The position numbers and the translations under genes were made by a program. 23,459 bases of DNA from a virus. Of this stretch, positions 11,901 to 23,459 are shown piece after piece. The notes below the pieces were generated by a model that saw only the letters and a program-made list of their open reading frames with translations, searched no databases and was not told where the DNA came from. The DNA lies in IMG/VR virus record IMGVR_UViG_3300028393_000343, positions 1 through 23,459 of that record; one strand, 5' to 3'. Every line of letters starts with the position of its first letter. Position 1 is the first letter of the stretch.

Positions 11901-14111
11901 CCTGGAGTAATATCAAATTTATCAATTAATAAAATTCTGCATAAACGTTGGGCAAAAAGTGATATAACTGATTTACAAACGCAGTTAAATAATCTTGAAT
12001 ATTATACATCATTGAATATGCTTGAACAGAGAGCATCCGCATTACAAGTATCAGATGTCAATGGGTTAAACCGTTTTAAAAATGGTATTCTTGTTGATGA
12101 TTTCTCATCTTATTCTACTGCCGATACATTTAATCCAGATTATTTTGCAAATATTAATACACGAACGAAACAACTATCGCCGACAACAATTGTTAATAAT
12201 TTTCAATTGCAAAACCCAACAGTTCTTAGCACATTAGGAACACTAGCAAATACAACAGGATATAGTGTTAAAAGCATCGCAGGAACACAAACTAATATTT
12301 TTACATTACCATATACCACTGCCAATGTTGTAACACAACAACTTGCAAGTAATACAGTCAGTGTTAATCCATTCAATGTTACAATTCAAGAAGGTATTGG
12401 TACATTAAATCCACCTATGGATAACTGGGTGGATAATACAAATGCACCTGCAATTCTGATTACCGATCCTGCGATGCAAGTTTTTCAACAAAGTGCTGGT
12501 GTTAACCTAACAAATAGTGGTGATTTTCAAACTATTCCTGGAACAACATCAACCTCAACATCATCTGTTAGAACTGGTAGAGTAGTTGCATCGACTACAT
12601 CAACATATGGTTCGCAAATTCAAAATCAATCTACTACTGAAGGATATAGTCCAGTATCATCAACATATGCTTCAAACAATGGGTATTTGACAAATGTTGC
12701 AGTATTACCTTATATTAGACCACAGCAAATAATTGTTAGTTCTAAAGGACTTTTAGTTAATACACCAGTAAGTGCATGGTTTGATGGTCAAGATGTGAGT
12801 GCATATATTACTACACCAAATACTATTGAGTTGACTGATGTTTCTGGTAAATTTTTAACGAATGATGTTGTTGGTTTCTATCTTGCTGACAATGATACAT
12901 TTTATCCTATTGGTAGAGTTACTTCAGTATACACATATCCAAAAGTAACAGGCCAATCGACAAAAGTAAGATTGTATATGGGAACGTTTATTGGTTTACC
13001 CGCAACAGTTGCAACTACTACATTGAGAAATGCACACTTTGATTCAAATGGTAATTATATTAATTATGCTTCTGATTCAAAAGCAGCAAGTGGTAAAACT
13101 TTAAACGATGCAATTATTTCATTGAGTAGGTCTGGAAATATTACTGCCGCGGGTGGTAGTTTTACAATATCAGGAAATACTGTTGCTCAATCAATGTACA
13201 AGACTCCAACATACAGTACATATTGTTCGTTCTTAAATCAATATGGTGTTTGGGGTACACCAAATAATTCATCAACATACAATGCATCATTTATTATAGA
13301 AAATATACCAGCAGATACGTATACATTTACATCATCCGCACATACTGGCGCTGTCATAAAGGCGAACGGAAGACCTATAGTAAATGTTTCAAGTTGGACA
13401 ACAACAACAACAAACACAGTATCTCTTCCGGAAGGAACAGCCAACCTATCGATTTCAGCAACTAATAGTTCTGGTGGTGCAGCAGTTGCAGTAACGGTTG
13501 CAAATTCAAAAGGTAATATTGTGTGGACATCATTAAATCCACCAGGATTAACCCGATCAAATGTTAAAACGGAATTAGTGATGCCTTTAGGTGGCGCATG
13601 GTTTGAAGGTGTGACTGCTGTACAGTTAGACTCAAATGCATCTGCAAATAATGAGTATTACACAGGAACAACTATCAATATTACATCAAAGTACATTTAT
13701 AGTTTCACTTATGGTGCAACGTATGTTCCACCAAAAAAGAAAAGTAGTTGCTGTGTCGTTGCAACTGCAATGACTAATAGTGGAAATATGTCGCTTATGA
13801 AATATGCAAGAATTAATGCATGGGCGACCAATAAATTAGATAAAAGTTGGATAGGCGAACGTTTTCATAGAGGTTATCATATTATAGGATCAAATATTCT
13901 TATTCCTATGATGAGACAAAATAATATACTATCAAAATATGTACAATGGTCATTTAGTAATGGTACCAATATGCTGATGGGTAAAAAATATAATAAATGG
14001 TCTATACCAAATAGCATACCTTGGTTAACCGCAATGATGATAACTGGACTATTTGTGAGTAAAGAGTATGCAGAGAAAACATGGAATTCTTTGTATAAAA
14101 AAAAGCAATAA
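8976..14111 (+). CDS. Giant virion structural protein (DUF4815-type) with C-terminal CxxATA-like domain
   Basis: At 1711 residues this is the largest product in the window. The N-terminus (residues 22-46, with PGYAVQARELTQAQT) and a LDFRPSR element near residue 880 match DUF4815-containing structural proteins of T4-like marine phages, thought to lie at the baseplate periphery or fibre attachment. A LPYIRPQ segment near residue 1242 followed by a WFDGQDVSAYIT stretch is another family hallmark. Most of the protein is beta-rich; residues about 995-1040 form a helical, coiled-coil-like segment (QTQLNNLEYYTSLNMLEQRA). The last 120 residues differ: after a KKKSS linker, Cys1592-Cys1593 begin CCVVATA, followed by charged and tryptophan-rich helices, resembling the CFIATA-type domain at the ends of many bacterial and phage proteins. 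An AAAGGA Shine-Dalgarno lies 5 bases before the ATG. The exact structural role is inferred. Confidence 0.85.
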   Translation: MKNFNVDPYYDDFDPSKNFHRILFKPGYAVQARELTQAQTILQDQISKFADNIFKQNTPVTGGKVTVNLNAYYVQLNTQYNGQNVVAQDFLNKVIADSTGTILAKVIATAEGTGTSVVAGDPPTLILSYLSGVHFSDGDVLVPTDGTNIGATVAISIANAPSTGKSSVASISDGVFYVVNGYSQSSVQNQDGSYTKYSIGNFVSVQPQTIILDKYSNTPSYRVGLSITETIADYINDPSLLDPAIGASNYQAPGADRYQIILSLITFPLTVGNDDAFIELVRIDQGNVIKQVNGTVYAVIDDYFAKRDYETNGDYVVDEFRLTPSANTLYTSKYDLSVSKGVAYVHGYRIENQASITLTSDRAQTTTAIDNNGVYIDYGSYFYVDTVTGTFDVTTMPTVDFHCVSASDIVSSNVKNYTSTLVGTGYIRNLNFDYNMSGDADTDYYVYKAYVCDIVTNTLTGNAASGTTNTITFNNTNHKFSRSANAYYGATITITAGTSVGDSRKIVSYNGSTRVATVDQPFSVVPDSTSAFSLAFTIGTIDSIAKANSTYAVLASANINAQSKLRNIVTNDTILGNAGYPEMLFKIGYPYVASITDSNYSSTKVFRSKTFTNSSGTPTITISIPSGTPLKFLGTGTLHSDTIKQNYTVIDHATGKVLDLCTTGNTVTVAANSSTVTFTSTEYNGKIVDIITNVSVANADYQTSGHVLKIKNLVSGNTTDPIAHTSGTVIRTNTYVDTADGQVYIKNAALSTNKMSLYVADVKKIKKIIDTRSPTAIPTASMMLNSTYDVTTSFRLDNGQRDNMYDHASIQLIPGAPMPVGNILIVFDYYSHTGGDGYFSVMSYLAPLSSSPEPTIATIPSYTSSHGTLYNLEDSLDFRPSRKNAVTSYTFETTGTPSVDDTGILIPSNLSQFTHNYSYYLGRKDKLILTKDQSFKIINGTPSTNPLLPKEPDGSLVLAELSLDPYTAYVPGEGPPGVISNLSINKILHKRWAKSDITDLQTQLNNLEYYTSLNMLEQRASALQVSDVNGLNRFKNGILVDDFSSYSTADTFNPDYFANINTRTKQLSPTTIVNNFQLQNPTVLSTLGTLANTTGYSVKSIAGTQTNIFTLPYTTANVVTQQLASNTVSVNPFNVTIQEGIGTLNPPMDNWVDNTNAPAILITDPAMQVFQQSAGVNLTNSGDFQTIPGTTSTSTSSVRTGRVVASTTSTYGSQIQNQSTTEGYSPVSSTYASNNGYLTNVAVLPYIRPQQIIVSSKGLLVNTPVSAWFDGQDVSAYITTPNTIELTDVSGKFLTNDVVGFYLADNDTFYPIGRVTSVYTYPKVTGQSTKVRLYMGTFIGLPATVATTTLRNAHFDSNGNYINYASDSKAASGKTLNDAIISLSRSGNITAAGGSFTISGNTVAQSMYKTPTYSTYCSFLNQYGVWGTPNNSSTYNASFIIENIPADTYTFTSSAHTGAVIKANGRPIVNVSSWTTTTTNTVSLPEGTANLSISATNSSGGAAVAVTVANSKGNIVWTSLNPPGLTRSNVKTELVMPLGGAWFEGVTAVQLDSNASANNEYYTGTTINITSKYIYSFTYGATYVPPKKKSSCCVVATAMTNSGNMSLMKYARINAWATNKLDKSWIGERFHRGYHIIGSNILIPMMRQNNILSKYVQWSFSNGTNMLMGKKYNKWSIPNSIPWLTAMMITGLFVSKEYAEKTWNSLYKKKQ

Positions 14112-16527: not shown

Positions 16528-19500
16528 ATGGCGAATACCGTTACTTTATTAAGTTATGCCAATACTTTTGGTGATTGGGTTACTACTACCAATCAGGTAG
16601 TAAAAGAGAATAATGATCTTGCTGCAAATAACTACATTAAACCCACAGGAACATTATACTTAAATGATCCAACAACAGGATTATCTGTTTTAACTGGCGC
16701 AATATTTCAAGGTACATTTCAAGTTGCTGGCACTGGATCTTCTGCATATGTTCAAAATAATCTTAGTGTAGATAGACAAGTATATTTTACAAATACAACT
16801 TTAGGTTTAACTAATTCTGGACAAGCAAATATCAATGGTCTTTTAATTGCACAAGGACCAGGTTTGAGTTTGTATGTTGCAAATAATGCAAATATCAAAG
16901 GCGTATTGACCGTCAGTAATAATGTAACAATTACAGGTAATACCAATTTACAAAACACATTGTATGTTACGGGCAATACCACGTTAAGTAATACACTATC
17001 TGTTGTTGGTAACACAGCACTGGAAAGTGCTTTAGATGTAACAGGTAATACAAGATTAGCAGATAAATTATATGTTTCTGGTAGTGTAACAATTAGTAAT
17101 GATTTAAATGTTACATCAACTGGAATAGTTCATATTCTTCAAGCAAATACGGCAGTCAATACAGCAACAGTTTCGGTTGTTGGTAGAACAATCACAGATA
17201 CTTTGGTAGCAAATACTTCATCAAGAACACCAATTGTTTATACCGAAAATGTAAAGGCAAACAATTCAGTAAATACGGCCGTAGCGTCGATTGTGGGGAC
17301 AACATATACAAACAGACTACAAGCAAATGCCACAGTCAATACAGCGACTTCTAGTGTCTCTGGTACATCATATACAAATATACTTCAGGCGAACTCGGTA
17401 GTCAATACTGCCACATCCAGTGTTACTGGCACAAATTATGCAAATGTTACTCAGGCAAATACTGCGGTAAATACAGCAACACTATCTGTTGTTGGTACAT
17501 CATATACAAATATCATAAAAGCAAATACTGCTGTAGATGTGAGTGGAAATGTGTACGCAGATGTGGTTTCTGCGAATTCAAGTATAAGTGTACCAACATT
17601 ATCTGTTACGACTAGATTAAATGGTAATTTAGCAAATATGTCTGCAAATTCCATGGCAATTGGTACTGGTGGTTTGAGTGTCGCAGGAAATTTTATTATT
17701 AATGGTCAGACAGTTTATAATGTGGATACATTTACATTAAGTGCAGGTGCCACTGTTGGAATAAATGGATATTTTCAGAATTATAGAGGTGCTAACACAG
17801 CGAATGCAGTTATTCGTTGGAATGAAGATAGCAAGTATTGGGATTTAAATGATGTCAACAATTTAAATCAGGCAACAACATATTCAAAAATTTTAACTGC
17901 TAACTTAATCAGTGACTCAGTATCGTCATTATCGTCAAGTACACTTGCATCATCTAAAGCAGCAAATACATTAAATGATAGTATTGTTACCGCAAATACA
18001 AACTCAAAATTATATACTGATGCACAAATAGCTGCAAATGCAGTAAGTGCAAACAGCGTAATTACTACTGCAAATAGTAACATGAAGTTATATGTAAATT
18101 ATGTAGTAACGGATAATGCAACAAGTGCCAATGCATATACTGATGCACAAATAGCTGCAAATGCAGTAAGTGCAAACAGCGTAATTACTACTGCAAATAG
18201 TAACATGAAGTTATATGTTGACGCCAACGTATCATCATTGCAAACACAAATATCATCAAATGTAACTTCGTTGCAAAGTCAAATTACTGCTAATGTTAAT
18301 ACCATTTCAAGTATTAATTCATATCAAAATACCAATATAACAATTACTGGTTCGTATGCTAACTCTGCATACAATAGAGCAAACGCAGCAGCAAATAGTT
18401 TCACAGGCACAACAGGTACCGCAACACCTACAAATGGAAATATTACATTTGCAAGTAATAATGGTGTTATTATTTCCGGTCAAGGAAGTACCTTATATGT
18501 TAATACATCACAAGATTTAAGAACAACTGCATCACCAACATTCAACTCATTAACATTAACCAATCCTCTTGCAACAACACAAGGTGGTACTGGATCAGCA
18601 ACAACTAGTGGTGCGATTCAAAATCTGTTAGGAGGATTAGGATCAGGATCAGCAGGTTATGCTGTTCTTACGAATGGTGCGGGTTCATTCTATTTAGGTT
18701 CTAGTGGTGGTGGTGGTGCAACTACTGCCGTTGGTACATTAATTAATATTTCAAGTAATACACAAACGGCACCAGCAGCACAAACATTATTTTATTCTGC
18801 AAACGTTGCAACCAATACCCCATACACACCGGGATTGAACCAATTAAAAGTTTTCATTAATGGTATAAGACAAACATTAAATGATTACACAGAATATTCA
18901 AATGGTGCATTTAGATTGACTAGTGGTGCAACTGCTGGAGATGTGGTTTTGTCTGAGGTATATGGTCAATACACATATGATAATTGGGCAAATGCAACAG
19001 TATTCACAGTTAATAGTAATATTTCTTCAACTGCAAATACTGTTCAACTTGCTATTGATGGATTGACAAGTAAACTCACCACATATTATGCAAACACCAG
19101 TTCTTCATACTCAAATCCAAGTTGGATTACATCACTAGATGCTACCAAGATTAGTTCTGGAACATTACCTAGTGCTAGATTATCTGGTTCTTACACTAGT
19201 ATAAGTGGTGTTGGTACATTAACAGCAGGTTCAATACCAACAACTTTAATTACTGGTCTTGCTACATCAGCAACAACAGATACAACTAATGCAAGTAATA
19301 TTACTTCTGGAACATTAGCAAATACAAGATTTGGAACAACAAGTAATGTTCAATTCTTCTCAATTGGCGCTGGAACTGCCGCATCTGCATCTATTGGTGA
19401 GATTCGTGCAACGGGTAAAATTACTGCTGGTTATTCTGATGATAAATTAAAAACTAAATTAGGTAGCATTGAGAATGCACTAAGTAAGGTGATGGATTTA

Positions 19501-19734
19501 AATGGTTTCTACTACGAAGCAAACAAAACAGCACAAGAACTTGGCTATAAAGTAAACCGTGAAGTTGGTTTGTCAGCACAAGAAGTCAAAAAAGTGTTAC
19601 CTGAAGTAATTGTAACAGCACCAATAGACGATAAATACTTGACTATTCAGTATGATAGAGTTGTTCCTTTATTAGTTGAGGCAATCAAAGAGTTGAAACA
19701 TGAAATAGATATGTTAAAAGGAAGTAAACAATGA
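16528..19734 (+). CDS. Trimeric-type tail fibre with C-terminal S74 intramolecular chaperone
   Basis: This 1068-residue protein is a long tail fibre. The N-terminus (1-90) begins with a LLSYANTFGDWVTTTNQVV attachment segment. Residues about 115-195 contain 12-residue beta-helical repeats (VxGNTxLxxxL), and 205-330 a 22-residue QANxxVNTAT array. About 440-600 is an alanine- and serine-rich helical shaft containing an exact 28-codon duplication. About 660-690 carries QDLRTTASPTFNS and a GGTG motif, and about 725-815 an adhesin-like NGIRQ...DYTEYSNGAF domain. The last 99 residues form a peptidase S74 chaperone: Ser970 and Lys975 (SDDKLK) match the spacing of the autocleavage dyad of endosialidase-type fibres, followed by GFYYEAN, GLSAQEV, LPEVI and a C-terminal helix. 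Cleavage before Ser970 after trimer folding is expected. AAAAAGG precedes the start by 5 bases. The stop overlaps the next gene (ATGA). Confidence 0.92.
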   Translation: MANTVTLLSYANTFGDWVTTTNQVVKENNDLAANNYIKPTGTLYLNDPTTGLSVLTGAIFQGTFQVAGTGSSAYVQNNLSVDRQVYFTNTTLGLTNSGQANINGLLIAQGPGLSLYVANNANIKGVLTVSNNVTITGNTNLQNTLYVTGNTTLSNTLSVVGNTALESALDVTGNTRLADKLYVSGSVTISNDLNVTSTGIVHILQANTAVNTATVSVVGRTITDTLVANTSSRTPIVYTENVKANNSVNTAVASIVGTTYTNRLQANATVNTATSSVSGTSYTNILQANSVVNTATSSVTGTNYANVTQANTAVNTATLSVVGTSYTNIIKANTAVDVSGNVYADVVSANSSISVPTLSVTTRLNGNLANMSANSMAIGTGGLSVAGNFIINGQTVYNVDTFTLSAGATVGINGYFQNYRGANTANAVIRWNEDSKYWDLNDVNNLNQATTYSKILTANLISDSVSSLSSSTLASSKAANTLNDSIVTANTNSKLYTDAQIAANAVSANSVITTANSNMKLYVNYVVTDNATSANAYTDAQIAANAVSANSVITTANSNMKLYVDANVSSLQTQISSNVTSLQSQITANVNTISSINSYQNTNITITGSYANSAYNRANAAANSFTGTTGTATPTNGNITFASNNGVIISGQGSTLYVNTSQDLRTTASPTFNSLTLTNPLATTQGGTGSATTSGAIQNLLGGLGSGSAGYAVLTNGAGSFYLGSSGGGGATTAVGTLINISSNTQTAPAAQTLFYSANVATNTPYTPGLNQLKVFINGIRQTLNDYTEYSNGAFRLTSGATAGDVVLSEVYGQYTYDNWANATVFTVNSNISSTANTVQLAIDGLTSKLTTYYANTSSSYSNPSWITSLDATKISSGTLPSARLSGSYTSISGVGTLTAGSIPTTLITGLATSATTDTTNASNITSGTLANTRFGTTSNVQFFSIGAGTAASASIGEIRATGKITAGYSDDKLKTKLGSIENALSKVMDLNGFYYEANKTAQELGYKVNREVGLSAQEVKKVLPEVIVTAPIDDKYLTIQYDRVVPLLVEAIKELKHEIDMLKGSKQ
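16900..17110 (+). repeat. 12-residue beta-helical repeats in the tail fibre
   Basis: The fibre residues here repeat with a 12-residue period, as VTGNTTLSNTLS, VVGNTALESALD, VTGNTRLADKLY and VSGSVTISNDLN. Alternating hydrophobic positions and the recurrent GN turn are typical of beta-helical fibre shafts. The boundaries are approximate. Confidence 0.7.
17140..17517 (+). repeat. Array of 22-residue (66-bp) repeats in the tail fibre
   Basis: Units begin at 17140, 17254, 17320, 17386 and 17452, each exactly 66 bp, with consensus (Q/K)ANxxVNTATxSVxGTxYTNxx. A shorter 16-residue diverged unit lies at 17206-17253, and a degenerate unit follows from 17518. The amino-acid pattern is well kept while codons differ between units, so the array looks old and maintained by selection on protein structure. 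Confidence 0.88.
18012..18095 (+). repeat. Exact 84-bp direct repeat, copy 1
   Basis: This segment is identical, base for base, to 18135-18218, 123 bp downstream. It encodes YTDAQIAANAVSANS and the following residues within the fibre shaft. Both the repeat and the offset (41 codons) keep the reading frame. Confidence 0.95.
18135..18218 (+). repeat. Exact 84-bp direct repeat, copy 2
   Basis: This is the second copy of the 84-bp segment at 18012-18095, with no mismatches. It is bounded by a mismatch on each side (t/c before, a/t after). Perfect identity suggests a recent in-frame duplication or ongoing gene conversion within the fibre gene. Confidence 0.95.
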
Positions 19735-20174
19735 CCACAAAAGTCACACCATCAGTATTGCAAAATACTGCGGTAAGCGCAGGATCATATGGTAATACCA
19801 CACAACATGTTGCAATAACCGTCGATGCTCAAGGACGATTAACCTCCGCAGCAAATGTAACACCAAGTATAGCAAATACACAAATTACTGGTGTGATGAC
19901 TGCATCACAATTAGCAAGCACTGCGGTTACTGCTGGTTCATATGGTAACTCTACAACATCTATAAGTTTAACAATTGATGCACAAGGTAGAATAACATCA
20001 GCAGCAAATGCAGCAATATCAGTTGCAGGTGGTGTCATATATGAAAATAATCAAACAATAACATCAAACTATACTATGACTAGCGGTAAATCAGGAATGT
20101 CCGTTGGACCAATCACACTAAATACTGGGGTAACAATAACATTACCTACTGGTTCTCGCTGGGTTATTTTATAA
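19731..20174 (+). CDS. Short tail fibre tip/adhesin-like protein with two DAQGR modules
   Basis: The 147 residues contain two copies of a tail-fibre module with consensus TAVxAGSYGNxT...DAQGRxTSAAN, at about residues 12-44 and 63-97. The C-terminus is a beta strand element (SVGPITLNTGVTITLPTGS then RWVIL) typical of phage fibre ends. The start lies inside the last codon of the fibre gene (ATGA), and its Shine-Dalgarno AAAGGA (19717-19722) is encoded by the final Lys-Gly codons of the S74 chaperone. The protein is paralogous over its first 44 residues to the product of 22376-22870. A role as an exchangeable fibre tip or receptor-contact protein is inferred from module type and location. Confidence 0.8.
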   Translation: MTTKVTPSVLQNTAVSAGSYGNTTQHVAITVDAQGRLTSAANVTPSIANTQITGVMTASQLASTAVTAGSYGNSTTSISLTIDAQGRITSAANAAISVAGGVIYENNQTITSNYTMTSGKSGMSVGPITLNTGVTITLPTGSRWVIL

Positions 20175-20185
20175 AAGGATAATTT

Positions 20186-20773
20186 ATGAGTAGTCTTATT
20201 TTAACTTCAGAAGCATTAGCAGGAAGTCCTTCAGTTGGACAAATAGAATATAACGGTCAGTTTTATGGAACTGACAGCAACTCTGCTAGAGCGCAGATGC
20301 AGAGAATTACTTTAAGAACTGTTCAAGCAACTACATCAGGAACAGGACCATTTACTTTTACTGGAATACCTGCTTGGGTTAAGAGAATTACTGTGCAGTT
20401 TAGCGGCGTTTCAGCAAGCGCAAGCAATCTAGGAGTTCAAATTGGATCAGGTTCGTACAGTACGTCTGGATATGTGGGCGGCGGTGTTATTCTTAACTCT
20501 AGTGGAAATACATTAGTGTCAACTGGAAATCAACTTGGTTTTTACGGAAGTGTTACTTTATCAACAGGTACAAACAGCGGGATTATTGTACTAACAAATA
20601 TAACTGGAAATACTTGGGTGGGAACAGTAAATGCAAGTAGATCAGATGGAGTATCATTAGTACATAACGCAACTATTACACTTGGTGGCGTTTTGGATAG
20701 ACTTCAAGTTACTACTTTTACTGGCACGGCGACTTTTTCTGCTGGGCAAATCAATATTTTATGTGAGGGTTAA
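20186..20773 (+). CDS. Putative tail fibre/adhesin beta protein
   Basis: This 195-residue protein begins with LTSEALAGSPSVGQIEYNGQFY. The segment resembles the short beta element found in many phage tail-fibre proteins (generic form: extra leucines, P-x-x-G-x-I-E-Y-D/N-G). From about residue 40 it is a serine-, threonine- and glycine-rich beta domain with a WVKRITVQFSGVS strand pair, ending in INILCEG. Its size and sequence fit a small jelly-roll-like adhesin domain, but I do not recognise the family exactly. AAAAGGA (20173-20179) gives a good ribosome site. Its base composition looks somewhat less AT-rich than the baseplate genes, consistent with exchange of host-range modules. Confidence 0.72.
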   Translation: MSSLILTSEALAGSPSVGQIEYNGQFYGTDSNSARAQMQRITLRTVQATTSGTGPFTFTGIPAWVKRITVQFSGVSASASNLGVQIGSGSYSTSGYVGGGVILNSSGNTLVSTGNQLGFYGSVTLSTGTNSGIIVLTNITGNTWVGTVNASRSDGVSLVHNATITLGGVLDRLQVTTFTGTATFSAGQINILCEG

Positions 20774-20775
20774 AC

Positions 20776-21192
20776 ATGGCAGGCACATTAGTAGTAGATA
20801 CAATACAAAGTGGTGCGAGTCTTACACCACCAACTATCACAGATAGTGCAGGAACACAAATTGGTACGTTGTGCAGAGCGTGGGTAAACTTTGGTTATGT
20901 ATCTTCCGCCATAACTGTTCGTGCCTCATTTAATGTGGCTAGTGTCACAAGAAGTGCGGTTGGCACTTATTTAATTACCTTTACTAATGCAATGCCAGAT
21001 GCAAACTATTCTGTTTGTTTTGGAAATGTAAGTTCTGGCGCAACTAACTTAACTATCACTACTGTTTTGCAAGGTGTATATACCACAGGTGCTACAGCCA
21101 AAACAGCGGCATCAGTAGGCATTTATACTGGATCATCAGCGGCGGCTTCTATTGTTGATGTAGCCGATGTTTCAGTCAATATTTTTCGATAA
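20776..21192 (+). CDS. Small tail protein of the CRAWVNF type
   Basis: The 138 residues start MAGTLVVDTIQSG and contain CRAWVNF (33-39), RASFNVASVTRS (49-60) and MPDANYSV (73-80). These motifs occur together in a widespread family of short phage tail proteins, usually annotated as tail fibre or hypothetical tail proteins and predicted to be beta-sandwich host-contact domains. The gene begins 2 bases after the upstream stop, with GAGGG at 20765-20769. It is full length for the family as I know it. The receptor-binding role is inferred. Confidence 0.8.
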   Translation: MAGTLVVDTIQSGASLTPPTITDSAGTQIGTLCRAWVNFGYVSSAITVRASFNVASVTRSAVGTYLITFTNAMPDANYSVCFGNVSSGATNLTITTVLQGVYTTGATAKTAASVGIYTGSSAAASIVDVADVSVNIFR

Positions 21193-21201
21193 GAGGACAA
21201 A

Positions 21202-21606
21202 ATGAAAGTAATTATTTTTACAAACGACAACGGTGGTGTATCTGTCTGTACTCCATCAGGTGAAGTAGATATTGCAACTGTTAAAGCAAAAGATACACCA
21301 GCAGGTTCTATTATCGTTGATGCATCGACTCTTCCAAACGCAGACAATGATTTCTTTGATGCATGGGAACTGAGTGGTGAAACAGTATCAGTCAACATCA
21401 ACAAAGCAAAAAATATCACAAAGAACAGACTTCGTGCTGAACGTGAACCATTATTGGCAGCACAAGATGTATTGTTTCAACGTGCATTGGAAACTAATTC
21501 AGATACAACTTCAATCGTTGCAGAGAAAAACAGATTACGTGATATCACAAAACTTGTTGATACATGTACTACAACAGAACAACTGAGAGGTCTAAAATGT
21601 CAATGA
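21202..21606 (+). CDS. Small phage tail accessory protein, possible fibre-assembly helper
   Basis: The 134 residues have a beta-rich N-terminal half (MKVIIFTNDNGGVSVCTP, then DFFDAWELSG near 50-59). The helical C-terminal half is charged, with RLRAEREPLLAAQDVLFQRA (76-95) and EKNRLRDIT (108-116). This pattern is shared by small proteins beside tail-fibre genes in many phages; the helical half recalls tail-fibre assembly chaperones, but the match is by general layout. AGAGGA (21192-21197) is a strong Shine-Dalgarno. The stop lies within the start region of the next adhesin, which argues for coupled synthesis of helper and client. The chaperone role is inferred. Confidence 0.75.
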   Translation: MKVIIFTNDNGGVSVCTPSGEVDIATVKAKDTPAGSIIVDASTLPNADNDFFDAWELSGETVSVNINKAKNITKNRLRAEREPLLAAQDVLFQRALETNSDTTSIVAEKNRLRDITKLVDTCTTTEQLRGLKCQ

Positions 21607-22085
21607 TTTTAGATGGTAGTGCAGGAGTTACATTTAACAATGCCACATCACAAAATAGTGGTGGTGTAGCACTGCAAGTTGTAACTAGTAATACTAAAAC
21701 TCAAATTTCAACAACCAGTGCTACTTATGTAAATACTCCATTATCACTTTCTATTACGCCATTATTTTCTACCAGCAAAATTTTAATAATGGTGAGTGGT
21801 CAAATGTTTGGGGGCGCGGACAATGCCACCATGGGTGCGTTGGGCATTACAAGAAATTCAACACTTATCTTTGATGACCAAAGAGCACTTATGGATAGTG
21901 TAAATGCTATTGTAGGTATTGGTTATAGAACTAATATTATTTATTTAGATTATCCTTCAACAACAAGCGCAACAACTTATACTGTACAACTAGCTAGATC
22001 AGCTACAGCAGGAACAAGTTATCCGATTTACTTTACTTATGGTGTCAATTCCATTTCAACAATTATTTTGATGGAGATTGCATGA
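21597..22085 (+). CDS. Putative short tail adhesin
   Basis: The chosen start at 21597 (MSMILDGSAGVTFNN) has GAGAGG 6 bases upstream, and the ILDGSAGVTF opening is frequent in phage tail proteins. An in-frame ATG at 21564 has no ribosome site and would add 11 unlikely residues. The 162-residue product has a short beta tail followed by a beta-sandwich-like region from about residue 25, with many S and T residues and hydrophobic alternation and a C-terminal TIILMEIA strand. Similar short phage proteins are host-contact tips. The gene overlaps its predecessor by 10 bases and its successor by ATGA. Confidence 0.75.
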   Translation: MSMILDGSAGVTFNNATSQNSGGVALQVVTSNTKTQISTTSATYVNTPLSLSITPLFSTSKILIMVSGQMFGGADNATMGALGITRNSTLIFDDQRALMDSVNAIVGIGYRTNIIYLDYPSTTSATTYTVQLARSATAGTSYPIYFTYGVNSISTIILMEIA

Positions 22086-22333
22086 TGATTACTTTACATG
22101 ACGCTATTTTTGCACTTAATTTACCTATTGTAACTATTCGTGGTGATGTTGCATATGACTCCAATGAACAAGAAGTAGTCTACGACATGGCACAAGCAAA
22201 AGTTAAACTTGCAGAAATGATTGCAGAAGAAACTGCTAAACAAGAAGCACAAGCAACAGTTAAAGAATCAGCAATAGCTAAACTGGCTAAACTTGGCTTA
22301 ACTGAAGATGAAATTAAGGCACTTATAGGTTAA
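22082..22333 (+). CDS. Small helical tail accessory protein
   Basis: The 83 residues open with ITLHDAIFALN and a short beta segment (VVYD). They continue as a charged helix (about 36-70) and end in KLAKLGLTEDEIKALIG. That last motif closes many small phage proteins lying next to tail-fibre genes. ATG codons at 22082 and 22085 are both possible; the first overlaps the previous stop (ATGA), and GGAG at 22073-22076 serves either. Together with the 134-residue protein upstream it could act as an assembly helper for the adhesins around it, which is inference. Confidence 0.75.
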   Translation: MMITLHDAIFALNLPIVTIRGDVAYDSNEQEVVYDMAQAKVKLAEMIAEETAKQEAQATVKESAIAKLAKLGLTEDEIKALIG

Positions 22334-22334
22334 T

Positions 22335-22379
22335 ATGACTATTAAAATAATAGATATGTTCAAAGAAAGTAGACAATGA
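22335..22379 (+). pseudogene. 14-codon remnant of an S74 chaperone C-terminus
   Basis: A tiny frame reads MTIKIIDMFKESRQ and stops at a TGA overlapping the next ATG. Its end is homologous to the end of the tail fibre (IDMLKGSKQ). Positions 22350-22379 match 19705-19734 at 27 of 30 bases, including the ATGA junction. I read it as a leftover of a duplicated fibre-end/adhesin-start segment rather than a functional peptide. It may still supply the leader for the next gene, although its AAAGAA is a poorer ribosome site than the AAAGGA of the parent. Confidence 0.6.
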
Positions 22380-22870
22380 CAACCAAAATCTCAGGATCAG
22401 TATTAGCAAATACTGCGGTTACAGCAGGAGTATATGGCAACACAGCCATAATTCCAAACATTACTGTTGATGCACAAGGAAGATTAACTGCGGCAGCCAA
22501 CGTCAATGTGTCATCTATGACAGTTGATGGCGTAAACTCAATTGGGTATTTAAACGCACCACTCAATAGTCAATCTGCTGCATATACGACTGTATTATCC
22601 GATTCGGGTAAAATTATCTATCATCCATTAGGAGATACACTAAGAACGTATACGATTGCCAACAATGCAACTGTAGCGTATGCTCTTGGTACAACATTGT
22701 CGTTTGTTAATATGGCAACTAGTGTGATAACTATTTCAATTGCAAATGATACGATGTATTTAGGAGGAACTGGTGCAACAGGCAATAGAACGCTGGCTCA
22801 ATATGGCATGGCAACTGCTGTTAAACTGACTTCTACAACGTGGTTAATTTCTGGAACAGGAATAACCTGA
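22376..22870 (+). CDS. Tail fibre tip/adhesin-like protein with one DAQGR module
   Basis: This 164-residue protein shares its first 44 residues (SVLANTAVTAGVYGN, then ITVDAQGRLTAAANV) with the protein at 19731-20174. It then switches to an unrelated beta-rich domain containing AYTTVLSDSGKIIYHP, a segment seen in small phage tail tips that carry glycine- and threonine-rich strands. The C-terminus reads WLISGTGIT. The homology to the earlier paralogue extends upstream across the start codon into the chaperone remnant. This is a mosaic: a conserved N-terminal attachment module joined to a variable tip. The stop overlaps the next start (TGATG). Confidence 0.78.
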   Translation: MTTKISGSVLANTAVTAGVYGNTAIIPNITVDAQGRLTAAANVNVSSMTVDGVNSIGYLNAPLNSQSAAYTTVLSDSGKIIYHPLGDTLRTYTIANNATVAYALGTTLSFVNMATSVITISIANDTMYLGGTGATGNRTLAQYGMATAVKLTSTTWLISGTGIT

Positions 22871-23459
22871 TGTCCGCAATTATTAATTTGTTGTTAGCCG
22901 GCGCCGCAAAAGTAAAAGACGCCTATTTTAATTTGGTTATGTTGTTGTTGAATGCATCAACAACTACCGGCGTAACAAACAATACATTTCAAGATTCTTC
23001 AAGTAATAATTACTTAGTTACTCGAAACGGTAGTGCAACGCAAGGAACATTTACACCGTTCAGTCCGACCGGGTGGAGTAATTACTTTGGTGGTAGTGGA
23101 AACTATGCTGTTAGTAGTGCTGCGGTTATTACTACCACGACTACAACGTTTACTATAGAGGGGTGGATACATCCAACTGTTGCTGCGATATCTTCAGGTA
23201 ATGTTCCTGCTATTATTGGAGATATGCAGCCTACAGGAGCAACAAATGCTTGGAGTTTTGGTACATTAGCTTCAGGTGCCGTTGCTTTTTATTGGTATGA
23301 TGGAGCAGCAAAAACAGCAATAACTAATGGAACAGTATCACTAAATCAATGGTCACATATTGCTATTTCAGTTAATGCAAATGCAATTTCTATTTTTATA
23401 AATGGTACTTTGCAAACATTAACAGGAACAACAACATTAACAAATAGAAATCAAACCAC
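22870..23459 (+). CDS. LamG/concanavalin-like lectin tail protein (3'-truncated by window)
   Basis: The open frame starts at the ATG overlapping the preceding stop (TGATG) and runs to the window edge without a stop, giving at least 196 residues. Residues 1-28 are hydrophobic and helix-like (INLLLAGAAKVKDAYFNLVM), followed by LLLN and TFQDSSSNN with GTFTPFSPTG. This is the usual entry to phage LamG-type domains, continuing with YFGGSGNYA, FTIEGWIHP near residue 96, and WSHIAISVNANAISIFINGT near 160-180. These are the beta-sandwich landmarks of laminin-G/concanavalin-like domains that bind glycans. It likely recognises host surface polysaccharide. The C-terminal part lies outside the window. 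Confidence 0.82.
   Translation, partial: MSAIINLLLAGAAKVKDAYFNLVMLLLNASTTTGVTNNTFQDSSSNNYLVTRNGSATQGTFTPFSPTGWSNYFGGSGNYAVSSAAVITTTTTTFTIEGWIHPTVAAISSGNVPAIIGDMQPTGATNAWSFGTLASGAVAFYWYDGAAKTAITNGTVSLNQWSHIAISVNANAISIFINGTLQTLTGTTTLTNRNQT

Follow-up and report, generated by a model that had tools for sequence, protein, structure and literature searches.

The 30 bases at positions 22350-22379 of the virus record analysed here (the window, 23,459 bases in full) are probably what recombination has left of an S74 fibre gene of the phage's own lineage, a scar made up of its final ten codons (stop included) that now stands alone ahead of a second MTTK-DAQGR gene. In this reading, which we consider well supported, the S74 tail, the ATGA overlap and the head that follows form a shared exchange joint. 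The match itself was observed directly, as were its specificity, the recurrence of the joint over different S74 cores and one copy of 55 bases within a single genome.

The fibre locus and the second S74 tail

The nearest matches to the window's baseplate wedge gene, at ~39% identity, come from two T4-like phages, HTVC008M (Pelagibacter) and Melnitz (Methylophilales); the window's fibre start found no isolate match in the phage collection. All genes of the window discussed here lie on the plus strand. A long tail fibre gene (16528-19734, 1068 aa), with PHROG matches to distal long tail fibre families, ends in an S74 intramolecular-chaperone domain (Peptidase_S74, PF13884, positions 19435-19608, residues 970-1027; E=1.2e-8, 35.5 bits against a cut-off of 22). 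The SDDKLK and GLSAQEV motifs can be read in this domain, and autocleavage at the S-D site is predicted. The fibre shaft contains a perfect 84-nt direct repeat (18012-18218, copies 123 nt apart), which looks like a recent in-frame duplication of 41 codons. The helical S74 tail, IDMLKGSKQ and a stop (19705-19734), also supplies the gene after it with a Shine-Dalgarno site (AAAAGGAA, 19716-19723). That gene, the first of two MTTK-DAQGR genes (19731-20174, 147 aa; product beginning MTTKVTPSVL...DAQGR), overlaps the fibre gene by ATGA. Five small genes (20186-22333) separate it from the second one (22376-22870, 164 aa); they start at 20186 (fibre-like), 20776 (fibre tip), 21202 (assembly-like), 21597 (fibre-like, with no relatives in viral_contigs) and 22082 (mobile, 83 aa). 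A laminin-G/concanavalin-like lectin gene (22870-23457; PF13385, E=2.5e-13) follows and continues past the window's end.

Directly upstream of the second DAQGR gene, the sequence holds a mini open frame of 14 codons (22335-22379; MTIKIIDMFKESRQ followed by a stop). Its own ATG is separated from the stop of the 22082 gene by a single base (TAA-T-ATG), and the frame overlaps the 22376 gene by ATGA. Only the last 30 bases of this 45-base frame (22350-22379) match the fibre tail. The initial annotation had claimed that they agree with 19705-19734 at 27 of 30 bases, including the ATGA junction, and alignment and shuffles confirmed this. The three differences (TTA/TTC, GGA/GAA and AAA/AGA, tail/scar) each change an amino acid, which leaves no visible conservation of the peptide. 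The remnant consists of tail codons alone, outside the Pfam span; of 12 S74 queries run with tblastn, none matched anything in the window except the domain of the gene ending at 19734, and the catalytic domain is therefore absent upstream of the scar.

Ribosome sites resemble one another in an AT-rich window such as this, and a similarity of this length might be fortuitous. However, none of 100 dinucleotide shuffles produced it. When the last 30 bases of each S74 end were compared with their own contig, the best second copy reached 27/30 in the window and 30/30 in L204, and at most 23/30 in all others. These results refute a chance match, whose probability we regard as negligible. A pattern search of the window with three mismatches allowed returned the two occurrences. 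Over the 26 bases that precede the ATG, the scar and the phage's own S74 tail match at 0.88, against 0.73 for the next best tail (L116), with none tested higher; this bears out the derivation of the 30 bases from an S74 fibre gene end. Among 1637 upstream regions of other genes, taken as controls, one reached 0.88. The tail type of the scar, IDxLKGSK, is that of this lineage (window, L116, L289 and L297). In a separate scan, the perfect non-MTTK matches were S74 gene ends themselves, in L123 and L204.

Junctions in related phages and probable exchange at the joint

Junctions were collected through the head sequence, by scanning viral_contigs with a pattern for genes that begin with MTTK, and all relatives are uncultured T4-like contigs. 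Intact S74 genes running into DAQGR genes, which the initial annotation had proposed looking for, proved common: of the 53 distinct junctions whose flanks were complete, 39 lay on an S74 gene end. Many different S74 domains in these contigs end in a nearly identical tail (KELKAEVEELKGQIK), followed by ATGA into the MTTK-DAQGR head, and the S74 genes at junctions finish in KELKxEVExLKGQIK-like codons. Across 28 representative junctions, AAAAGG is nearly invariant at -15 to -10 before the ATG; the last chaperone codons of intact junctions thus encode the ribosome site of the next gene, as had been suggested. Consecutive S74-ended genes form arrays in L123, L319, L323 and L325.

A second sample, picked by the fibre N-terminus, comprised 80 loci and the window, with 67 complete fibre genes, 56 of them S74-ended. 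Intact joints were common there too. No isolated scar in the 80 loci passed the PWM threshold, which the window's mutated scar fails to reach as well, and scars of this kind are therefore rare or quickly decaying.

Tail conservation must in part reflect selection for the ribosome site. Nevertheless, tail identity over 45 nt tracks the downstream DAQGR gene and not the S74 core: at equal S74-core score, the last 45 nt were 0.551 identical with a DAQGR gene downstream of both, vs 0.402 (6/2000 label permutations). For the helix part alone, upstream of the ribosome site, the corresponding figures were 2/2000 permutations overall and 40/2000 within the score bin. The S74 cores of L136 and L153 hardly align, whereas their 45-nt tails are 96% identical. 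In L123 (also in L204), two consecutive genes with dissimilar S74 domains share exactly the same last 55 nt (L123:12296-12350 and 13564-13618), after which the L123 heads differ, MTTK vs MTLSRNLS. L205 and L184 correspond in the fibre shaft (80%) and the downstream DAQGR gene (85%), but the tips between them differ, and both are S74-less. The interval holds a tip, a Phage_tail_APC-like gene and a cupin-like gene in L205, and a tip and a 58-aa gene in L184; homology restarts inside the scar (L205:13306, L184:10411). The L205 scar, LKFIKKLKVDELKGQIK and a stop (...KKLKVDELKGQIK and a stop), matches S74 tails at 0.92. A single joint sequence found between unrelated flanks in several genomes is the pattern that modular exchange would be expected to leave, and the idea of a swap point gains support from its recurrence with differing S74 cores, tips and heads (L136/L153, L123, L205/L184).

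In L205, tail-assembly-chaperone-like and cupin-like genes (L205:12206-13275) occupy the place where S74 is expected; cupins are uncommon in fibre clusters. S74-tail remnants at further S74-less junctions, which had been anticipated, do exist: that of L205 is clear, and those of L184, L191 and L303 are recognizable only at the level of the ribosome site. L184 was accordingly dropped as a full scar. We likewise rejected the 28-codon frame before L113-type DAQGR genes, which mostly overlaps the upstream gene and shares only the ribosome site. The DAQGR genes of L111/L194, L131, L170 and L361 had no detectable scar.

Origin of the scar and expression of the 22376 gene

Homology does continue for about 44 codons into the downstream genes, as first described, with 69.6% amino acid identity over residues 1-46 and 69% nucleotide identity over 129 bases. 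The two DAQGR heads of the window, 69% identical in DNA, are not nearest neighbours: the L179 head is 73% identical to the second, and the L200 head 74% to the first. These nearest-neighbour identities do not support the two heads as sister copies. Heads of ~44 codons are common to genes with C-terminal parts of many tail-fibre/collar families, glycine-rich domains or S74. Within the phage collection, the DAQGR head matched only cyanophages and one Pseudomonas phage.

The phage's own junction block at ~19700-19860 (S74 tail and DAQGR head) could have been copied to 22350 as a single unit and then diverged. Such a duplication would account for the contiguity of tail and head similarity (95 nt at 80%) and for a scar tail closest to the phage's own S74 tail. 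The unequal divergence of tail and head would not be unusual either, since tails at 0.88 or above also persist in 23% of the S74 junction pairs whose heads diverge to a similar degree. However, the heads, at 69%, are no closer to each other than to those of other phages, vs 90% for the 30-nt tail, and the L123 tails were copied without the head. We consider this origin possible but unlikely. The earlier proposal that the chaperone end and the adhesin start moved as one unit was accordingly not upheld, given heads that are just 69% identical and an L123 tail duplicated with a different head. Its description of a duplicated chaperone end is doubtful: copying may have occurred, but it is not the sole route, as relics of the same kind in L205/L184 arise by fibre-end replacement.

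We therefore return to the recombination scar. The S74 helix codons, the ribosome site, ATGA and the MTTK head would together constitute a joint common to otherwise unrelated genes. Through crossovers in or beside this joint, whole fibre-end cassettes would be replaced, inserted or copied; the short 3' remnant would persist in its role as leader of the downstream gene. Homologous recombination is the presumed agent, and we infer that the scar arose as the 19731-22333 block came between the S74 end and the second DAQGR gene. The order of events may have been insertion before that gene, or tail copying. No direct precursor, with S74 joined to a gp9/gp10-type DAQGR gene, was present among the contigs found. 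The breakpoint is approximate, as the scar is just 30 bases long.

The change from GGA to GAA in the scar leaves the 22376 gene with a weaker Shine-Dalgarno site, predicted pairing to the 16S end falling from -5.8 kcal/mol in the intact window tail to -1.1 in the scar. The notion that junction and expression signal travel together thus fails for the weakened scar copy; intact junctions do encode the next ribosome site. The mini-frame's own start pairs at -3.3 kcal/mol, and the 22376 gene probably now depends on translational coupling from the mini-frame. Selection might even have kept the mini-frame as a functional leader peptide, coupling 22082 to 22376, in which case its resemblance to S74 tails would come from shared leader selection and not from descent. 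The TAA-T-ATG reinitiation layout, the ATGA overlap and the contrast between the two Shine-Dalgarno sites fit this account. Selection on the ribosome site would nonetheless leave the matching ATAGATATGTT upstream of that site unexplained, the peptide has changed at all three differing codons, and a degenerate DNA pattern of the IDM tail had no further occurrence in viral_contigs; we judge a leader of this kind improbable.

Under the recombination reading, the mini-frame start (ATGACTATTAAAAT) may, speculatively, represent what is left of the start of a former neighbour of the 22082 gene, truncated and fused to the scar, because that gene is mobile and has changing downstream neighbours, often in the TAA-T-ATG arrangement. 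The 22082-22333 gene (83 aa) has over 200 relatives in viral contigs, with mostly differing downstream neighbours and often this stop-start layout; it is a mobile small gene of fibre regions.

The 22376 protein had no Pfam match, no PDB sequence match and no informative PHROG match. Its N-terminal DAQGR head (residues 1-44) yielded no usable model (pLDDT ~42-62), whereas residues 57-163 were modelled with pLDDT mostly >90. The fold predicted for this C-terminal beta domain (~57-163) matched T4 gp9 (Z 9.4), T4 gp10 (8.8), CBA120 TSP4 (10.3) and a Klebsiella phage KP1 baseplate chain (12.2) in VIA comparisons. Superposition of the model on gp9, gp10 and TSP4 over ~90 residues at 2.4-2.7 A rmsd suggests a shared fold. 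More than 70 viral contigs carry relatives of the gp9/gp10-type domain, for the most part attached to different N-terminal regions. The adhesin role first assigned to the downstream gene is unproven, and the modelled fold argues rather for a tail component with a gp9/gp10-type domain.

On an even balance of probability, the S74 tail, ribosome site and ATGAC make up a general cassette joint of uncultured T4-like freshwater phages. Containing both the end of one fibre gene and the whole start signal of the next, the joint would let any S74-ended gene precede any MT-headed tip gene with expression intact, and continued recombination would keep copies within one genome (L123, 55 nt identical) similar. 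Should the joint prove general, LKGQIK-ATGACNACNAAR would be a sequence handle for the history of fibre arrays in uncultured phages. It would also explain how tip genes are exchanged without broken expression, because the start signal lies in the last codons of the neighbour. The scar indicates that such exchanges leave readable relics.

Comparison with known exchange systems

In T-even phages, fibre-tip modules are exchanged at conserved sequences, according to Tetart 1998 as cited in PMC11414711. The window locus resembles this arrangement, as far as the cited account describes it: a chaperone/adhesin gene follows the distal fibre gene, and host-range modules cross over at short conserved sequences. 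The conserved piece differs from the one in that account, being here the S74 C-terminal tail, with the ribosome site and start of the next gene, and the DAQGR head. The window's S74 region matches gp37 of the S16 gp37-gp38 tip weakly in the PDB (6f45, E=0.0035), and no gp38 homologue was identified at the window locus.

Tail-spike clusters of Ackermannviridae are arrays of receptor-binding genes whose conserved 5' ends have been proposed as sites of homologous recombination (PMC11414711). The solved N-terminal part of CBA120 TSP4 shares its fold with the modelled C-terminal domain of the 22376 protein. In those clusters, however, the homology is a 5' end coding for XD/TD domains, whereas here it crosses the gene border and includes the previous stop codon. 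The T5-like phage DT57C carries two fibre genes, LtfA and LtfB, both S74-ended (pfam13884), and recombination within ltfA alters host range, as reported in the relevant parts of PMC4728585. Those parts describe neither ATGA-coupled DAQGR heads nor isolated S74-tail scars in this siphovirus. Our search of the open-licence literature found no description of a joint that crosses a gene border and combines stop, ribosome site and start within a single short piece of shared sequence. Gene swapping in phage tail fibres is already well known; the joint described here differs in that it spans the border between two genes.
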